Shown here: piece after piece, positions 31,196 through 53,463 of the stretch
Layout of the letters: every line of letters begins with the position of its first letter
Position numbering within the stretch: the stretch's first letter is position 1
IMG/VR virus record: IMGVR_UViG_3300011113_000257
Location: 46,858 to 110,857 of that record
Origin: a virus
DNA length: 64,000 bases
Strand: one strand, 5' to 3'
Made by a program: the position numbers and the translations under genes
The notes under the pieces: model-generated
Seen by the model: the letters and a program-made list of their open reading frames with translations, nothing else
What the model was told of the DNA's origin: nothing
Databases searched by the model: none

Positions 31196-31899
31196 TGGAT
31201 GCCACATTCAGTTCAGAAATGACAGTAGAACTTGTCAAGCACAGCGCTTCTGATTCAGACATTGCTTTCGCTGCCAGAGTCTCTACCCAAGGTGAGCGCT
31301 CTAAAGAAACCACCATGGGAGAGATTGGTGGTCTGATTAACTTTCTAATGCGCGAGAGACACGGCTCCCCATTCGAGCACTCTACGATGACTTTCTATGT
31401 CAAGGCTCCAATCTTTGTTTGGCGTGAGCATATGCGTCATCGCATGGCAAGTTACAACGAAGAATCAGGACGCTACAAGACACTAGAGCCACACTTCTAT
31501 GTTCCAGACAAAGACCGTAAGTTAGTCCAGATTGGAAAGACTGGCTCTTACACATTTGAAGAGGGAACTCTTATGCAATACGGAAGCGTGCTTGCTGGAT
31601 ATCTTAAAGGCTCTAAGGCTTCATACGAAGCGTACTTAAAGATGCTTGAGTCTGGTATTGCTAAAGAAGTTGCTCGCGGAGTTCTACCAGTGAATATTTA
31701 CTCCAGTGCTTATGTAACTATGAATGCTCGTGCGCTTATGAACTTTCTTAGTCTGCGTAAGTCTGACCCTGAATCGCACTTTCCTTCCTACCCCCAGCGA
31801 GAGATTGAGATGGTTGCGGAGCAGTACGAAGAAATCTTTAAAACTTTGATGCCACTTACCTACAATGCTTTTGTTAAGAATGGAAGAGTTGCACCTTGA
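31195..31899 (+). CDS. thyX: FAD-dependent thymidylate synthase ThyX, 234 aa
   Basis: ThyX motif RHRMASYNEESGRY (RHRxxSxNxxSxRY). Makes dTMP from dUMP with FAD and methylene-tetrahydrofolate. ATG (31195) overlaps the deaminase stop as TAATG; upstream ATGs lie inside the deaminase gene. Confidence 0.95.
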   Translation: MDATFSSEMTVELVKHSASDSDIAFAARVSTQGERSKETTMGEIGGLINFLMRERHGSPFEHSTMTFYVKAPIFVWREHMRHRMASYNEESGRYKTLEPHFYVPDKDRKLVQIGKTGSYTFEEGTLMQYGSVLAGYLKGSKASYEAYLKMLESGIAKEVARGVLPVNIYSSAYVTMNARALMNFLSLRKSDPESHFPSYPQREIEMVAEQYEEIFKTLMPLTYNAFVKNGRVAP

Positions 31900-32825
31900 C
31901 TTATCCAACCATCTCAGACTTAGGCGGTGAGGCTCACCTTATTCGCAGGTACGCCATGCCTCCTAATAAGAGTTGGAGCGCGTTCAATCCATCGATAGTA
32001 CTTTCTAATGAAGGAGAGTATTGGATTGCATTCAGAGCAAGTAACTATATTTTTTCTGACACAAGAATATCTGTAAAACTTACAGCAGGTAATAGAGTAC
32101 GAAACAAGATGTTTATTGTTCGTCTCAAGGATGACTGGTCGTTTGATGAAGAGACCCTAAAAGAAATTACTGTAACTAATGTTAGAGACAACATCATTAG
32201 AGGGTTAGAAGACCCAAGACTTTTCTGGGATGGAACAAGTTATTGTATTAGTTCTACCTATCTAGAAAAAGATAATCCAATAGCAAGAATTTCAAAGATA
32301 AGAATTAAATCTTTAGAAGACCCTGAAGTTTTATCTATAGAAATCTACCCGTCTCCCAAAAATCAAATTGAGAAAAACTGGATGCCAGTACAAGATACAG
32401 AATCTTTTATCTATGATTACTGTTCCGTGGTTACTAATGGACAGGTCATACAGCACAGCGTAAATAAGAAGTACGAAACATTTAGAGGTGGTACTCAGGT
32501 AATACCGCTCGGAGACGGAACAAGTATTGCACTTATTCACGAAATCTACTCGGTAGTCGTTAGAGCAGTCAATCCAACAACTTTTTCATCTACAACAAAT
32601 GTAAGAAACTATAGTCATAAATTTGTTAGATACAACAAAGACTTAAAACCAATTCAGTGCTCAGAAGACTTTATCTTTGTAAAAGAAGGAATTGAGTTTG
32701 CTTCTGGCATAGCGCCTATAAAAGATGGATTTGTTATTAGTTTAGGCAGGTCAGATTTGGCTTCGTATGTGGCAACCATAAGTAAAGAAAATGTACTAGC
32801 AACACTTAAGGATTTAGATGTCTAA
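31896..32825 (+). CDS. GH130-like propeller protein, 309 aa
   Basis: WSAFNPSIVLSNEGEYWIAF, RGLEDPRLFWDGTSYCISST, EKNWMPV and HKFVRYNKDLKPI align with 26088-27164. TTG start overlaps the ThyX stop (TTGA). Second of three paralogues. Enzymatic activity unproven. Confidence 0.75.
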   Translation: MTYPTISDLGGEAHLIRRYAMPPNKSWSAFNPSIVLSNEGEYWIAFRASNYIFSDTRISVKLTAGNRVRNKMFIVRLKDDWSFDEETLKEITVTNVRDNIIRGLEDPRLFWDGTSYCISSTYLEKDNPIARISKIRIKSLEDPEVLSIEIYPSPKNQIEKNWMPVQDTESFIYDYCSVVTNGQVIQHSVNKKYETFRGGTQVIPLGDGTSIALIHEIYSVVVRAVNPTTFSSTTNVRNYSHKFVRYNKDLKPIQCSEDFIFVKEGIEFASGIAPIKDGFVISLGRSDLASYVATISKENVLATLKDLDV

Positions 32826-33480
32826 CGGAATTGCTTATTTATATGCTCGCGTCTCTACCCAGATTCAGGTAAACGACGGAGTAAGTCTCGATGCTCAAGT
32901 TAGACAAATGGAGTATGCAGCACTTGCAGCGGACTATGAACCCGTTGTTTTAAGAGAAGAAGGGCGCTCAGGTAAAAGTATTCAGGGTCGTCCAGTACTA
33001 CGAAACGCGCTAGATGACCTAGACGCAGGAAGGGCTCAGGCTATTTATGTCACAAGACTCGATAGATTGGCGCGTTCGACTAAGGACTTTCTTTCAATTG
33101 TTGACCGTTCACATAAATACGGTTGGCGTTTGGCTTTACTTGATTTGGGGCTTGATACTGCTACGCATCAGGGAAGGTTTGTTGTTACGATTATGGCGGC
33201 GATGGCGGAAATGGAACGCGGAATGATTTCTGAGCGTCAAAAAGATGTACATAGAGACCGAAGAAGTAGTGGAAAGAAGTGGGGGATTGACTTAGGACCA
33301 CTGCCAGATATTGAACAAAACATAAGAGAACGCATTTATAAAGAAAGAAATTTAGGACTTTCTTATCAGTTGATAGCAGACGGATTAAATGCAGAAAGCA
33401 TACCAACTGCGCATGGTGGAGAGAAATGGTACGCAGCAACAGTAAGAAATTCTTATTTAGCGTACAAAAAAACAATGTAA
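32818..33480 (+). CDS. Small serine recombinase (resolvase/invertase family), 220 aa
   Basis: Catalytic Ser in YLYARVSTQIQ, followed by YVTRLDRLARSTKDF and MAAMAEMERGMISERQ, the complete catalytic domain, then a C-terminal HTH. At 220 aa it is too short for a large serine integrase. It may resolve concatemers, invert a segment or be a moron. No attachment or crossover site was recognised. Overlaps the previous gene by 8 nt. Confidence 0.9.
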   Translation: MSNGIAYLYARVSTQIQVNDGVSLDAQVRQMEYAALAADYEPVVLREEGRSGKSIQGRPVLRNALDDLDAGRAQAIYVTRLDRLARSTKDFLSIVDRSHKYGWRLALLDLGLDTATHQGRFVVTIMAAMAEMERGMISERQKDVHRDRRSSGKKWGIDLGPLPDIEQNIRERIYKERNLGLSYQLIADGLNAESIPTAHGGEKWYAATVRNSYLAYKKTM

Positions 33481-33542
33481 AATAAGAACAAGGTTCGCGC
33501 TGACACACGAATTAATATTCTGCCCTTGCTGGAGGGGTTACT

Positions 33543-35537
33543 TTGTTTAAGACTCTAAGAGTTCTTGGTGCTCTTTTTTACTTATCTTTATTTGCTTTAA
33601 TTGCACCACCCCCTCCAGCAAGTGCGTCTATTGCCGAACAACCTTGCAATCAAGTCTCTTGGACTCAAGAAGACGATGTTGCCCACGAAATGGCTTTGCC
33701 TTATAGCCTTCCTCTTGGAGACACTACATACAATACAACCTATGTAACTACCAACGGAACTTTAACTTTTGGGACACCTGACCCAACATTTCACACATAT
33801 CCAAGTACTCCTTCCATCTCTCTTGCAGGCTGGGACTGGGTTACTTGGAGTGGTGGCTATTTAAGTTATGGAGTTACTGATACAGGCTTCTGCGTTGAAT
33901 GGAAAGTTCGTCCATTCCCACAGAGTTCAGGTGATTTTACAACAATCAAACTAACTGTTGACACTTCACGCCTACCTACTTGGTCTGGAATTGTTGAAAC
34001 AACAGGCTGGCTTCCTTCAGATTTACGTCGCGGTATTCGTTTCCAATCAGGTGAAGAGGTGGTCCAAATCTCAGAGGCGTTCACCATTAACGGTGGACTC
34101 CCAGTTGAAATGCAGACTTGTTGGGATGGAACAATTATCCCAATGTCTGCAACATGTCCTGCAGAACCACCACCCGGTCAATGCTGGGATGGCTCTACAG
34201 TTGTTTACGGGCAAACCTGTCCACCAGTCCCACCTGACACACAATGCTGGGACGGTACTTGGATTGCATGGAGTCAAACCTGTCCACCTCAACCGCCCCC
34301 AATAACTTGTTGGGATGGTTCAGTAATTGCTCACAACCAAACCTGTCCACCAACTCCGCCTGACACACAATGTTGGGACGGCTCAACTATTCCTTGGAAT
34401 CAAACTTGTCCACCAACTCCTCCAGATATTGTTTGCTGGGATGGCTCAACTATTTCTTGGAATCAAACCTGCCCACAAACACCACCACTAGTTGAGTGTT
34501 GGGATGGTTCGGAAGTTAACTGGAATGAGCAGTGTCCACCAGAGCCACCACCTGCAATTGTTTACCCAGACGATGCAATATACATTACAACTAACGAAGG
34601 GGGAGAACTTACTTATGTTGCCCCAGTTGGTATGAAAATTAATCAAATCTTATTTGCATCATATGGAACACCAAATGAGTACCAATACGGAACATGTCAC
34701 GCTGAAAACTCTGCAATGCTTGTATCGAATGCTGTATCTAATGACACCTTAGTCATTAATGCAAATAATGGAGTCTTTGGAGACCCTTGTGGTGGAACTG
34801 AAAAATATCTTTCTGTAGTTCTTACTATTGAAGTTGACCCTAACTATGTAGAACCAACTCCAACTCCTACTCCAGAACCGACACCCACTGAGACAGTAGA
34901 ACCCACCCCAACGCCAGAACCAACACCAGAGCCGTCACCATCAGTATCACCGACACCAGAACCGACTTTAGAACCTTCACCTACACCGACACCCACACCA
35001 ACAGTCCTGCCCACATCAGAACCAACAGTAACTCCAACAGTTGAGCCGAGCCCAGAACCAATACCTTCAGAGACTTCAACACCAGAACCAACTCCTACTC
35101 CTACTGAACCAATTATAGAGCCTGTTCAAGAAGTCATAGATAACGCTTCTGCTGATGGAATTATTACTGACAGTGAAAGAGAAATAATCTCTAATGCTCT
35201 CGTCGAGGAATATGCTGATACATCAATTCCATTTGATGTTTTTGAAGAGTCTGGTTTGGATTACGAAGACTTGCCACCCGAGCAACCAGTTACTTTAGAA
35301 AACGGTGTAGTTATTACTGCTGAAATTGCCGATGCACTTGAGATTTTTGAAGACCCTTCCGAACTCCTTTCCGCAGTTTTAACTGACCCAGGGAAGGCAC
35401 TTAAAGCCATTGCGAATGTTGGTGCCGATTTGTCACCAGAGGTTCGTAAGGACGCACAGGCAATCACTGTTTCGGCAGTCATTGTGTCACAAATAATTGC
35501 TGGAACTTCAGCACTAACCCTAGCGAGGAATCAATAA
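33543..35537 (+). CDS. Secreted repeat protein with SUEL-type lectin domain, 664 aa
   Basis: TTG start after GGAGGGG; signal peptide [18 protein letters not shown]. An N-terminal beta domain (about 30-200) is followed by seven repeats of CWDGSxxxxxQTCP (about 205-340). Then comes a domain with [17 protein letters not shown] and [16 protein letters not shown], the signature of rhamnose-binding (SUEL/Gal_lectin) lectins. A Pro/Thr/Glu linker and an acidic domain follow, ending in a hydrophobic segment. Possibly a host-surface or virion adhesin. Known mainly from animals, SUEL on a phage is notable. Confidence 0.8.
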
Positions 35538-35767
35538 TGAAAGCCATACTGATATGGATTAAAGATGCCTTCATTGAATCACTAAACCAAACATGGACTT
35601 TATTAGGTATGTTTATCGCTTGGTGCGTTCTTGAAGGAAGTGCAAAGACCGTTGTAGGTTATGCAATAACACTGTCACTAGCAATCTGGCTGCTTACAAT
35701 TAAATTAAGAGGTCCACTTGACCTTGAGATTGTGCATAAAGATGAAGACGAAGAAGCCCCCAAATAG
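35537..35767 (+). CDS. Two-helix membrane protein, 76 aa
   Basis: TLLGMFIAWCVLEGSAKTVV and GYAITLSLAIWLL are hydrophobic segments, with an acidic tail. ATG overlaps the lectin-gene stop as TAATG. Terminator follows. Confidence 0.75.
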   Translation: MKAILIWIKDAFIESLNQTWTLLGMFIAWCVLEGSAKTVVGYAITLSLAIWLLTIKLRGPLDLEIVHKDEDEEAPK

Positions 35768-35778
35768 GGGGCTTTTTC
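35755..35778 (+). terminator. Rho-independent terminator
   Basis: AGCCCCC/GGGGGCT stem, AAATA loop and TTTTTCC. Confidence 0.85.
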
Positions 35779-35828
35779 CTTTATACAAGCAATTTGCATA
35801 AGAGATACAAAGTCTGTACCATAGAGTT

Positions 35829-36383: not shown

Positions 36384-37793
36384 ATGGGTAAGAGTTTAAT
36401 GGAGCAAATTGCCATGCTCTCCGAGGAAGAACGTAATGCTGTTCTTTCTGATATGGATATGGACTCTCTTATCTGGGACTGGAAGGCTTGGGGAAGACCA
36501 GAACAACAAACACCAGAGGGTAACTGGAATATTTGGGCATATATCGCTGGTCGCGGTGCTGGTAAAACTAGAACTGCTGCTGAATGGGTTCGTGAAGAAG
36601 CCAAGCATACAAATAAGGGACAACTTAGATTTGCTTTAGTTGCTCGTACTGCAGCAGACGTTCGCGACGTTATTGTCGAAGGTGAGTCAGGAATTATCAA
36701 TGTTTCGCCACCGAGTGAGAAGCCACACTATGAACCGTCTAAGCGTCGTCTAACTTGGTCTAACGGAAATACTGCAACTTGTTTTACTGCTGACGAACCT
36801 GACTCACTTCGTGGTCCGCAATTTACTCACGCATGGGGCGACGAAGTTGCTGCTTGGCGACAGACTCCAGATGCTGCTGGTATGACTGCCTTTGATAACT
36901 TACGAGTTGGTACTCGTCTTGGGGACCGACCAAAAATTATGTTGACTACAACACCAAAGCGCGTACCGCTTTTATATTCTTTAATAGAAGAATCAAAGAA
37001 AAGTGAAAGTGTAGTAATTACACGCGGTAGCACTATGGATAATGCAGGTAACTTATCTGGCGCTTACATGGAAGCAATTATGGGTGTGTATGAAGGTACC
37101 CGTCTTGCTGCTCAAGAACTTTATGGCGAAATGCTTGACGACATTGAAGGTGCTCTTTGGACTATTGAAATGGTTGAAAGAAACCGACATGGGTCATTTC
37201 CTCTAGGAACACCTCTTAGATGTATAGGAGTAGACCCATCTGTGGCAGAAAATCCAAGAGATGAGTGCGGAATTGTTGTATGCGCTTCTACTGGAGATAG
37301 AGATTTATACAAACGCGAAGCATGGGTACTTGAAGATGCATCTATTCTAGGCTCACCTGAAGTCTGGGCTAATAAAGTTGTAGAGATGGCTCGTAAGTGG
37401 ATGTGTCCAGTTATTGCTGAAGTAAACCAAGGTGGGGCTTTAGTTCGTAATGCAATTAATGCTATTGACCCAAATGTTAAAGTTTTAGAGGTTCACTCAA
37501 AGCACGGTAAGCAACTTCGCGCTGAGCCTACTGTTCTTGCATATGAGCAAGGACGTGTTCACCATATTGGATTCTTAGCAGAACTTGAAGACCAAATGAC
37601 TTCATGGATTCCCGGTGAAGGAAAATCTCCAGACCGTGTAGATGCTTTAGTACATGCACTAACAGCATTACTTATTAAACCACCTCAAGGTTTTGTAGGC
37701 GGAAAAATAACCGCCCACTCCCCTGCCCGTCGAAAGATTGACTTAGGCAGGAGAGGTGGCGGTATGGGTGGTGCTAGGGTCTTTAAACCTTAG
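36384..37793 (+). CDS. terL: Terminase large subunit, 469 aa
   Basis: Walker A AGRGAGKTRTAAEW, Walker B HAWGDEVAAW, RNase-H-like nuclease with IGVDPSVAENPRDECGIV. Packages DNA into the prohead. ATG follows GGAGGAATA; the frame to 36345 lies in the terminator. It is isolated from other virion genes and ends with 4-nt overlap to the endolysin. Confidence 0.95.
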   Translation: MGKSLMEQIAMLSEEERNAVLSDMDMDSLIWDWKAWGRPEQQTPEGNWNIWAYIAGRGAGKTRTAAEWVREEAKHTNKGQLRFALVARTAADVRDVIVEGESGIINVSPPSEKPHYEPSKRRLTWSNGNTATCFTADEPDSLRGPQFTHAWGDEVAAWRQTPDAAGMTAFDNLRVGTRLGDRPKIMLTTTPKRVPLLYSLIEESKKSESVVITRGSTMDNAGNLSGAYMEAIMGVYEGTRLAAQELYGEMLDDIEGALWTIEMVERNRHGSFPLGTPLRCIGVDPSVAENPRDECGIVVCASTGDRDLYKREAWVLEDASILGSPEVWANKVVEMARKWMCPVIAEVNQGGALVRNAINAIDPNVKVLEVHSKHGKQLRAEPTVLAYEQGRVHHIGFLAELEDQMTSWIPGEGKSPDRVDALVHALTALLIKPPQGFVGGKITAHSPARRKIDLGRRGGGMGGARVFKP

Positions 37794-38524
37794 ACCAACT
37801 TAAATCCATATTTCTTTGCCATCTCTGACATAGACTTTTTGCCAGGAATACCATCAGCATCTTTACCATGGTAGCCCAACTTATGTTGCCACAACTTGTA
37901 GGCTTCTCTAGTCTTCTCATCAAAAGTTCCGTTAGCAGGAATTTTTGCACCGCATAGGTCAATTAATGCTGACTGCACGACTTTAACATCGTCATTAGTG
38001 GCACCATAAACAAGACCAGATAAATGTACAATCTTGTTTGGTTTCTTTGGTGTAGGAGTTACAATTGCAACACCCTTTTTCCAAAGACCAATCTTGCGTT
38101 CTGAAGGAGCATTCTTGTCAATAATGCCAGGCATATCTAGGAACGGATTGCTTACATCATTACCATAACGGAATGGTGAAACACGAGTTTCTAAGTGTAA
38201 GTGCGGCCCGGTGGAGTTACCTGTATTCCCAGAGAGCCCCAATTCCTCTCCTTCAGCAACTTTTTGACCTTTTTTCACAGTTGGCTTTGACATATGGCAA
38301 TACCAAATATCTACAGTTCCTTTATCGGATTTGCAAGTAAGAATTACAACTTTGCCATATGACTTGTCGTTAAGAACATCTTTGATTGTTCCTGCAGCAA
38401 CTGCAAATAAAGGAGTACCAACAGGGCAAGCAAAATCAATTCCCGTGTGACGCTTTGCTGAATAGCGAGGGTTTGGACGACCCCAAGGTTGAGAGACCTT
38501 AGGGTTTTTTAGTGGACTAGCCAT
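37790..38524 (-). CDS. M23 peptidase endolysin with peptidoglycan-binding domain, 244 aa
   Basis: HTGIDFACPVGTPLFAVAAG (HxxxD) and GPHLHLETRV (HxH) are the zinc ligands of LytM/M23 peptidases; a C-terminal helical peptidoglycan-binding repeat (VKVVQSALIDLCGAKIPANG, TFDEKTREAYKLWQ) follows. Cleaves wall cross-links. No signal peptide, so it would need the holin. Confidence 0.9.
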   Translation of the reverse strand: MASPLKNPKVSQPWGRPNPRYSAKRHTGIDFACPVGTPLFAVAAGTIKDVLNDKSYGKVVILTCKSDKGTVDIWYCHMSKPTVKKGQKVAEGEELGLSGNTGNSTGPHLHLETRVSPFRYGNDVSNPFLDMPGIIDKNAPSERKIGLWKKGVAIVTPTPKKPNKIVHLSGLVYGATNDDVKVVQSALIDLCGAKIPANGTFDEKTREAYKLWQHKLGYHGKDADGIPGKKSMSEMAKKYGFKLV

Positions 38525-51164: not shown

Positions 51165-51635
51165 TTATTGTAGAAGTTGTCTTGGTATCCAACCAGTTTT
51201 AACTAATCTTAATAGCCCATGTCTAATGGCATCATTAGCATGACCTTCTCCACCTTTGTGCCAATATTTAAGTGTTTTTAAGGCTTCGTTGGGAAACATT
51301 TTCTTTGCATCAGCAGGACTTTGCCAAAAAATACCTTCACGGTCTAGACCAAAATCTTGAAGAATCTGCTTAAGAACACCAATTTGCTCTAAACTGTACG
51401 GCGCTTGAGAGTTTCTAACAGTTTGAGCATTAATAGTAAATTTCTCACACACTATGCTAAATGTATCGTAATCTTCTCCAACATCTTTTATTATTTTTCT
51501 AATGGCATCAGCAAATTCCTCGGGCTGTACTTCGCACGAATATAGAATTTCTGGTTCTTTATTGGTTGCTATAGATAGCAGAGCAACTCCTGTTGCTTTT
51601 CCAGGGTCTACTGATAAAACATATTTAGTTTGCAT
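51165..51635 (-). CDS. RuvC-like Holliday-junction nuclease, 156 aa
   Basis: LSVDPGKATGVALL (Asp), VCEKFTINAQ (Glu) and GHANDAIRHGLL (Asp) are RuvC-fold acidic residues. Start MQTKYV overlaps the polymerase gene by 11 nt. Confidence 0.85.
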   Translation of the reverse strand: MQTKYVLSVDPGKATGVALLSIATNKEPEILYSCEVQPEEFADAIRKIIKDVGEDYDTFSIVCEKFTINAQTVRNSQAPYSLEQIGVLKQILQDFGLDREGIFWQSPADAKKMFPNEALKTLKYWHKGGEGHANDAIRHGLLRLVKTGWIPRQLLQ

Positions 51636-53463
51636 ATTTAACTCCCCAATTCTCCATCGGTCCATCAATACCTGAGGTAAGCGGAACTGCCCAGCCTTCA
51701 GTTGTTGTCATACATTCTTTAACGGTACGCATAACTTCCTCAACTTGGTCGCGAGGACAGTTAAGAACAATTTCATCGTGCACAGGGACAATAAGAAGTT
51801 CCGTTAAATCTGCTTGGTCAAGTTTAATTAAATTTGATTTGAATACTTCGGCAGCGCCACCCTGAATAAGATAATTTGTCAGGGTATAGGTACGGTCATC
51901 ATCACACGGCAAACGGCGACCAGTCCAAGTATGAACATAGCCTTGACCTTCAGAACGAAGACGGCGCATACCAATATCTTCAATCTTTTTTTGGAAAGAA
52001 ATCATTCCTGGATAGTTAAGGTCAAACGAGTCAGAAACCGCTCGCATCTGAGATTCTGGAACACCAGCAGTAAGTGCCTGCTTAGCCACGCCAGCGCCAT
52101 ACAGACGACCATAGACAACACCTTTAATAAGAGTACGTCGCTTATCTGAGCGAGACATATTAGGTTCTTGGTAGACCTCGCGACCAATTTCAGTAAACGG
52201 GTCAGAGCCAGTTGCATCAGAGCGATGAAAAAGATGAATCAAGTTTGGGTCTTGCGATAACGAAGCAAACATACGGAACTCAACTTGGTCAAGGTCAGAT
52301 GTCACAATAACGTGGTCATCATCTTTAGGTAAAAATGCGGTACGAACTACATCGTCACCCTTTGGTAAAGTTTGTAGCGCTGGGTCAGTGATTGACATAC
52401 GACCAGTTCGAGCACCCATTGTCTTTACAGACGGATGCACGAAGCCATCTACATTTTTGTTAATAAAGTTAAGGAAGTAACTTCCAGCAATTTTGTCTGC
52501 TTTTCTTTGTTTTAGAGCAGTTGCTGCTAACTCTTTTACTTCGTCGTTTCCTGTAATAGTAAGAAGTTTAAGTTGGTCTTTAGTTACTGCTTTATTTCCT
52601 GTAGGAGTAAACTCAGTAATCTCAGCGCCAAGACTTTCAAATAAACGAACCAATTGCATATTGCTAGTTATGGAAGTTCCGTTGTATGTCTTTTTGCACC
52701 AGTCTTTAACTGATTCCGTGTAGTCAGACAGTTCTTGATACTTACGCTTTGAGTACTCGACATCTACGCGAGCGCCATTAATTTCCATGCGCGTTACAAT
52801 TTTACGCGCTGCCATTTCAATTTCGTAGGCTTTGTTGTATGGACCTGTTGGACCGCATTGCTCATAAAACTGCTCCCACAAACGCATTGTTAGAACAGTA
52901 TCAAGAGCGCCGTAAGACCAATAAGGCTGAAAGTTTGTAGGAACAGTTCCCCAAGTCCAACCATTCTGAGAAAGCGACACGTCAAGAGTTTCTTGTAAAG
53001 CAACAGCGCGAGGGTCAACATAACGAGAAGCAAGACGCTTTAAGGCACCAGAACCAAGAGGGTCAATAATCTGAGCCATAATCATTGTGTCGTGAGCGCG
53101 ATGCCACGGCATGTCCCATTTTGAGTTAACAGCAAACCAACGCGCCTCAAAAGCAATATTGTGGCAAACAATTTGTCCTTCGTATCGGTTCATTGCTTCA
53201 TAAAAAACACCAGACCACTCAAGCCAAGGAATAGACCATCCTTGCTCTCCGTCTCCAATTTGAACTAAACGAATATCTCCATGCCAAGGAGAGAGTGCAT
53301 CCGAGCGTTCACCGCCACGACGTTCACCAGTCTCTATATCAACTGCAATGGCATTATATGGACGACGTTGACCAAGCCAAGTTAAAAATTCAGAAGCCTT
53401 TTCTATAGAGTCAACTAAGTGCAGTTGTACTTTAGAAAGGTCTGTCGTTTGTATTTCTGTCAT
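51625..53463 (-). CDS. Family A DNA polymerase with 3'-5' exonuclease, 612 aa
   Basis: Exonuclease motif AVDIETGE; polymerase motif A VTSDLDQVEFRMFA, motif B RRTLIKGVVYGRLYG, motif C VPVHDEIVLN. Replicative polymerase of the phage. ATG after GGACAATACAAA. Confidence 0.95.
   Translation of the reverse strand: MTEIQTTDLSKVQLHLVDSIEKASEFLTWLGQRRPYNAIAVDIETGERRGGERSDALSPWHGDIRLVQIGDGEQGWSIPWLEWSGVFYEAMNRYEGQIVCHNIAFEARWFAVNSKWDMPWHRAHDTMIMAQIIDPLGSGALKRLASRYVDPRAVALQETLDVSLSQNGWTWGTVPTNFQPYWSYGALDTVLTMRLWEQFYEQCGPTGPYNKAYEIEMAARKIVTRMEINGARVDVEYSKRKYQELSDYTESVKDWCKKTYNGTSITSNMQLVRLFESLGAEITEFTPTGNKAVTKDQLKLLTITGNDEVKELAATALKQRKADKIAGSYFLNFINKNVDGFVHPSVKTMGARTGRMSITDPALQTLPKGDDVVRTAFLPKDDDHVIVTSDLDQVEFRMFASLSQDPNLIHLFHRSDATGSDPFTEIGREVYQEPNMSRSDKRRTLIKGVVYGRLYGAGVAKQALTAGVPESQMRAVSDSFDLNYPGMISFQKKIEDIGMRRLRSEGQGYVHTWTGRRLPCDDDRTYTLTNYLIQGGAAEVFKSNLIKLDQADLTELLIVPVHDEIVLNCPRDQVEEVMRTVKECMTTTEGWAVPLTSGIDGPMENWGVKYAN

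Follow-up and report, generated by a model that had tools for sequence, protein, structure and literature searches.

We identified a phage gene for a predicted secreted lectin that, together with a small gene directly downstream, appears to form a two-gene surface display module of actinophages. The gene lies in a window of 64,000 nucleotides (the whole stretch of DNA that we analyzed) within a 110,857-bp virus record. Its protein carries an exchangeable head, here a lectin domain of the SUEL family, on an anchor that stays constant among relatives, as does the downstream partner. The case for this architecture is strong, and from it we infer a function. The displayed head may mask the receptor glycans of the infected cell, which would exclude superinfecting phages and protect released progeny. 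We assign this reading a probability of about 0.4. Freshwater Actinobacteria are abundant, and their phages are nearly all uncultured, with most genes lacking an assigned role.

Domain organization of the lectin protein

The open reading frame at 33543–35537 (+ strand, 664 aa) was confirmed to be present and is conserved in relatives. It is preceded by a GGAGGGG ribosome-binding site and begins with a TTG start codon (33522–33545, +). Residues 1–29 (33543–33629, +) form a signal-peptide-like N-terminus with an AxA cleavage motif, as judged from the sequence and its hydropathy. This reading agrees with the signal peptide of the original prediction, and complete relatives start with the same kind of signal-peptide-like N-terminus. 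Next comes a conserved N-terminal domain (residues 32–193; 33636–34121, +) that is all beta. Its mean column identity is 87% over the 19 rows of alignment A1, and it was modeled by AlphaFold2 (AF2) with a pLDDT of about 69–93. Pfam, PDB profile, and PDB fold searches with this domain gave no match, INPHARED gave none, and a search of GTDB contigs found no relative. A nidogen-like (NIDO) identity, guessed from the motif TTNGTLTFG, was dropped: Pfam gave no match at a threshold as loose as E=1, and PDB profile and fold searches gave none either.

Seven CWDG[ST]-x7-C repeats follow at residues 193–331 (C193–C331; 34119–34535, +), each unit being a disulfide-type C-x11-C loop. Seven repeats had been predicted, and all seven are there. 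The strict formula CWDGSxxxxxQTCP originally given for them fits four, and the looser CWDG[ST]-x7-C is needed to fit the full set. TRF detected the array in the DNA as a tandem repeat with a 63-bp period (34182–34507, score up to 289), and relatives carry three to nine copies. Because the array is evident at the DNA level and recurs in relatives, we do not regard it as a product of chance.

The lectin cassette (34551–34848, +), which includes the domain at residues 346–432, is succeeded by a Pro/Thr/Glu/Ser-rich stalk (residues ~433–530; 34839–35130, +) that is also found in lectin-bearing relatives. The protein ends in a conserved anchor (35202–35534, +), defined by alignment A8 and the AF2 model, in which a small helical domain with the motif N[VIL]GAD[ML] leads into a terminal hydrophobic helix. 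AlphaFold2 draws a single helix over residues 632–663 at the C-terminus, with low confidence at the helix end. Both the stalk and the hydrophobic end had been anticipated. This combination of Sec leader, stalk, and terminal hydrophobic helix would suit a protein held in the host membrane with its head outward.

Identity and ligand site of the lectin domain

Three approaches, namely Pfam, PDB profile searches, and AlphaFold2 with Foldseek, concur with the SUEL/rhamnose-binding lectin domain of the original prediction. The Pfam SUEL_Lectin model PF02140 has a curated cut-off of 31.4 bits. It scored just under this value against the whole protein (28.6 bits, E=1.9e-6) and over it in a whole-genome search (32.6 bits) and against the isolated domain. 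The profile search against Gal_lectin (PF02140) that had been proposed as a check thus returned a match, at 33.4 bits for the isolated domain. A profile built from 46 phage and bacterial domains matched sea-urchin SUL-I (1.6e-57), CSL3 (1.6e-27), and RemA (5e-23) in the PDB, along with CSL2 and latrophilins. When the AF2 model of residues 31–432 was searched with Foldseek, the top 11 PDB matches were all SUEL lectins with a probability of 1.00, and SUEL lectins were the only confident PDB fold matches. The pLDDT of the SUEL domain in this model is about 55–88. Such lectins had been described as best known in animals. Animal lectins do match, and the family is also bacterial, as seen in the RemA match and in the SUEL domains that we found in 45 bacterial genome contigs. 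Matches to PDB 8zvk and to the Plasmodium circumsporozoite protein were discarded as low-complexity stalk matches, and a mixed alignment with lectin-only rows (A5) proved to be misaligned and was left out of the model.

The FGDPCxGTxKYL-type motif occupies residues 412–423. Only two cysteines, C385 and C416, are present in the domain in place of the multi-disulfide set of animal members. Multiple disulfides are not needed for Pfam membership, since 45 of the 46 aligned domains in our phage and bacterial set match PF02140.

A structure review assigns Glu7, Tyr27, Lys86, and Gly83, with Asn74 and Asp79, to the monosaccharide site of CSL3 (PMC3269628). All six residues are present in the phage domain, where Glu7, Tyr27, Asn74, Asp79, Gly83, and Lys86 correspond to E352, Y374, N409, D414, G418, and K421. 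The six positions are conserved at 98–100% across the 46 domains; N409 and D414 fall within the search patterns, which partly select for their conservation, whereas E352, Y374, and K421 lie outside those patterns. A lectin that has lost both cysteines and is 33% identical (L002) keeps all six contact residues. Between the window and two relatives (L001 and L028), the lectin has a dN/dS of 0.14–0.16 and is under purifying selection. We do not claim horizontal transfer of the L006 lectin, which was considered on account of its lower dS (0.55 versus 2.39 and 1.55); its dN/dS value is anomalous, the comparison covers a short segment, and the DNA aligns without a break. The SUEL head is likely to bind sugar. 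Given the conserved sugar-contact residues, binding of a rhamnose- or galactose-type sugar is a reasonable prediction.

SUEL domains also occur in other settings. In phages, they stand at the C-terminus of leaderless fibre-like ORFs, possibly as receptor-binding tips (L037, 1–1959; L207, 4662–5330; L208, 4641–5351; L211, 4626–5267). A second family of stalked phage proteins (L040–L044) combines a cysteine-free SUEL variant with an N-terminal domain of its own. Actinomycetota genomes, one of them from Ilumatobacteraceae, also have SUEL proteins of their own, with a C-terminus that is strongly hydrophobic (L116, 4017–6056; L119, 3918–6050).

Heads are exchanged on a constant anchor

Relatives of the window protein have the leader, N-terminal domain, CWDG repeats, stalk, and C-terminus in common and differ in the middle. 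The head is a lectin in L001, L006, L028, L057/L159, and L058/L158, and a cysteine-free version of the lectin in L002. It is a beta-helix in L003, L004, L005, L007, L008, L013, L017, and L022, with the beta-helix of L003-type heads identified by a Pfam match. L056 carries a stretch that reads by eye as RTX-like, and L009, L010, and others have no lectin and just more CWDG units. The SUEL cassette is thus swapped out or missing in close relatives. L009 and L010 lack exactly 34551–34848, the lectin, between flanks with about 77–90% DNA identity to the window. For L009, the identity is 82% up to 34550, 77% from 34849, and 90% further on. The cassette breakpoints fall within the CWDG repeats and the low-complexity stalk DNA; homologous recombination between such repetitive stretches offers a simple explanation for head exchange.

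The anchor extends beyond these proteins. Outside the CWDG family, most of the secreted phage proteins with a lectin match its HMM (A8), and scanning IMG/VR with A8 yielded at least 549 confirmed stretches. The anchor was found in 0 of 397 Actinomycetota genomes, which are a sample of the phylum searched without a cellular positive control and thus not proof of absence. As far as we searched, its distribution is phage-only. Among INPHARED phages, the whole protein, the lectin, the N-domain, the C-domain, and the partner had no match in a search whose terminase control worked. Pfam identified heads of several kinds among 43 anchor members (SUEL, 8; PA14, 6; FN3, 2; GLEYA, 1; beta-helix, 1), although these members were picked partly for carrying lectins and the counts are not population frequencies. 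Because known adhesins bind carbohydrates through domains of the SUEL, PA14, and GLEYA families, the heads look like alternative glycan binders on a common mount. Several heads (CWDG-only and N-domain-only) are without any known sugar-binding domain.

Heads from several glycan-binding families (SUEL, PA14, and GLEYA) would also be expected of an adhesin on the infected cell. Here, the lectin would bind sugars on neighboring cells or particles in trans, and the resulting aggregation would bring new hosts to the lysis site or alter grazing. RemA, a bacterial surface protein with a lectin domain of this family, binds both rhamnose and galactose, and aggregation increases when it is overproduced (PMC11205867). 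The long stalks of the phage proteins would suit contact in trans. However, planktonic freshwater actinobacteria are not known to aggregate, and we consider an adhesin rather unlikely, if the best of the alternatives to masking.

A conserved partner follows the anchor

The lectin gene is followed by a gene for a 76-aa partner (35537–35767, +) whose start overlaps the lectin gene stop. A partner-type protein of 53–76 aa is encoded directly 3' of all 44 complete anchor genes (44/44), and the partner also lies directly downstream in nearly all complete members of our earlier sets. Partner proteins contain a motif like WTLLGMFIAWVVLDGSAKTVVGYAI together with two hydrophobic segments, which are probably transmembrane (TM) to judge by hydropathy. 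In L033, L035, and L182, the surface ORF runs on into a C-terminal extension with a partner-like hydrophobic pattern, which hints at a physical link between the anchor protein and the partner. A terminator-like hairpin, AAGCCCCC AAATA GGGGGCTT TTT (35748–35785, +; fold -24.8 kcal/mol, z -6.7), closes the two-gene unit.

Another small membrane protein (RIVAVFAASGLSVIGAG) is often encoded after the pair, sometimes just before an endolysin (L161, 7039–7329; L184, 6832–7218; L185, 6318–6590; L012, 11987–12271). PHROG labels its family a nuclease, and the label looks doubtful.

The partner raises the question of whether the pair assists lysis. Class II holins are small proteins with two TM segments, and the partner is like them in size and apparent TM number. 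A lysis accessory of this kind would join a holin-like two-TM protein to a stalked protein that ties the membrane to wall glycans, somewhat like a spanin suited to a Gram-positive envelope. Endolysin-type genes (CHAP, M23, and NlpC/P60) adjoin the pair in many relatives, and the anchor is single-copy in 15 of the 16 phage records tested, as such a role would favor. However, the partner matched no Pfam or PHROG family, holin families included. Swappable carbohydrate-binding heads would be unexpected in a lysis effector, and no endolysin adjoins the pair in the window, where the probable endolysin lies on the opposite strand at a distance of 2.3 kb. We judge a lysis role to be improbable.

Genome context and host

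Endolysin neighbors in relatives suggest that the module is expressed late. Late timing is not clear from the window itself because the lectin gene sits beside nucleotide-metabolism genes and the terminase, and the nearest probable endolysin, an M23 peptidase with a peptidoglycan-binding domain (37790–38524, - strand; PF01551, E=1.4e-25; PHROG endolysin matches), is downstream on the opposite strand. A serine recombinase is encoded directly upstream of the lectin gene (32818–33480, +; PF00239, E=2.5e-33). We considered it as a head switcher, but its position beside the gene is conserved only among close relatives of the window, and we treat it as context outside the module. Directly upstream of the recombinase, a 309-aa protein (31896–32825) has no confident family and by eye resembles a glycosidase-type beta-propeller.

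A role in the virion or tail, with binding to the host receptor during adsorption, is the least likely explanation and a very remote one: SUEL domains end leaderless fibre-like ORFs (L037, L207, L208, and L211) that are apparently receptor-binding proteins, but the lectin gene lies outside any tail cluster in the window, and its product has a leader, stalk, and C-terminal membrane helix that fit cell-surface anchoring and not tail assembly. Display on either the infected host or the virion had been suggested originally; the Sec-type leader and the membrane helix point to the host cell surface, which we favor over the virion.

The carriers of the module point to actinobacterial hosts. The window terminase shares 77% identity with that of the lake phage DSL-LC01 (assigned to Actinomycetia) and is placed next to those of Microbacterium and Gordonia phages. 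Of 20 records, 18 encode WhiB, an actinobacterial marker (PMC10202952), and the record analyzed here is among them; this points to actinophages. Elsewhere in the window, a DNA polymerase I type gene (51625–53463) has a sub-threshold match to DpoZ, the aminoadenine-incorporating type (123 bits against a cut-off of 500).

A proposed model of glycan masking

We propose that the lectin protein leaves the cytoplasm through the Sec pathway and remains fixed in the host membrane through its C-terminal helix. The stalk would carry the head out through the cell wall, and the outward-facing SUEL head may bind residues resembling rhamnose or galactose. Translated immediately afterwards, the two-TM partner probably assembles with the anchor or stabilizes it. 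Heads are traded from phage to phage as a cassette, with both anchor and partner unchanged, and a constant mount with changing glycan-binding heads fits a surface job that requires a match to host sugars. By covering the surface glycans of the infected cell, the head would cause further phages and released progeny to fail to adsorb to the cell or its debris. Masking would explain the single copy of the anchor, its wide presence, its proximity to lysis genes, and the diversity of heads. It predicts that each head matches the phage's own receptor.

The original prediction captured the lectin domain, leader, stalk, and membrane end of the protein; it had missed the exchange of heads, the partner that consistently follows, and the link to actinophages. 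The presence of the platform in hundreds of phages, with a constant anchor and partner and varying heads, suggests one shared step at the cell surface. The platform supplies candidate reagents as well as predictions on host glycans that can be tested, and masking, if true, would represent superinfection exclusion by means of a lectin. Stated broadly, the view that freshwater actinophages carry an undescribed two-gene display platform, whose heads are exchanged like tail-fibre tips and whose lectin is matched to host sugars for masking or aggregation, falls just short of even odds.

Comparison with known systems

The phage lectin resembles SUL-I, CSL3, and the latrophilin lectin domain (PF02140) in fold and in the FGDPCxGTxK motif, and it keeps the six CSL3 contact residues. 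It differs from animal rhamnose-binding lectins, which usually have multiple disulfides, in its cysteine pair and in occurring as a single domain within a surface protein. It does not conserve the Arg39/Gln43 loop that governs oligosaccharide specificity in CSL3. RemA of Flavobacterium johnsoniae (8gl6) is likewise a cell-surface SUEL protein and is reported to bind rhamnose and galactose. RemA, however, is secreted by a T9SS and serves gliding in a Bacteroidota cell, whereas the window protein is encoded by a phage gene and has a membrane anchor, a stalk, and a two-TM partner.

Open-access literature yielded no description of phage SUEL or rhamnose-binding lectins and none of the two-gene platform; two freshwater-phage papers (PMC6802176 and PMC9878933) make no mention of lectins. 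Related proteins are present in databases from uncultured Caudovirales phages. A0A6J5NGG5 (BFVD/UniProt) has a SUEL domain and C-terminal anchor in common with the window protein, and A0A6J5NEV5 and A0A6J5P6J9 have the N-terminal part and the anchor in common with it. A0A6J5NGG5, A0A6J5PD65, and their relatives carry automatic annotation only, and we found no descriptions of an operon, head swapping, or function for them. Since SUEL domains in phages have already been annotated automatically (A0A6J5NGG5 and A0A6J5PD65), the two-gene platform is the noteworthy part of our findings.

A parallel in function is offered by receptor-masking superinfection exclusion proteins such as Llp of phage T5. 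Llp is a small lipoprotein that acts on a protein receptor in a Gram-negative host, and we claim no sequence relation between it and the window protein. The likeness is one of role: Llp is a phage product on the infected cell that blocks adsorption and protects progeny, as we propose for the display module.
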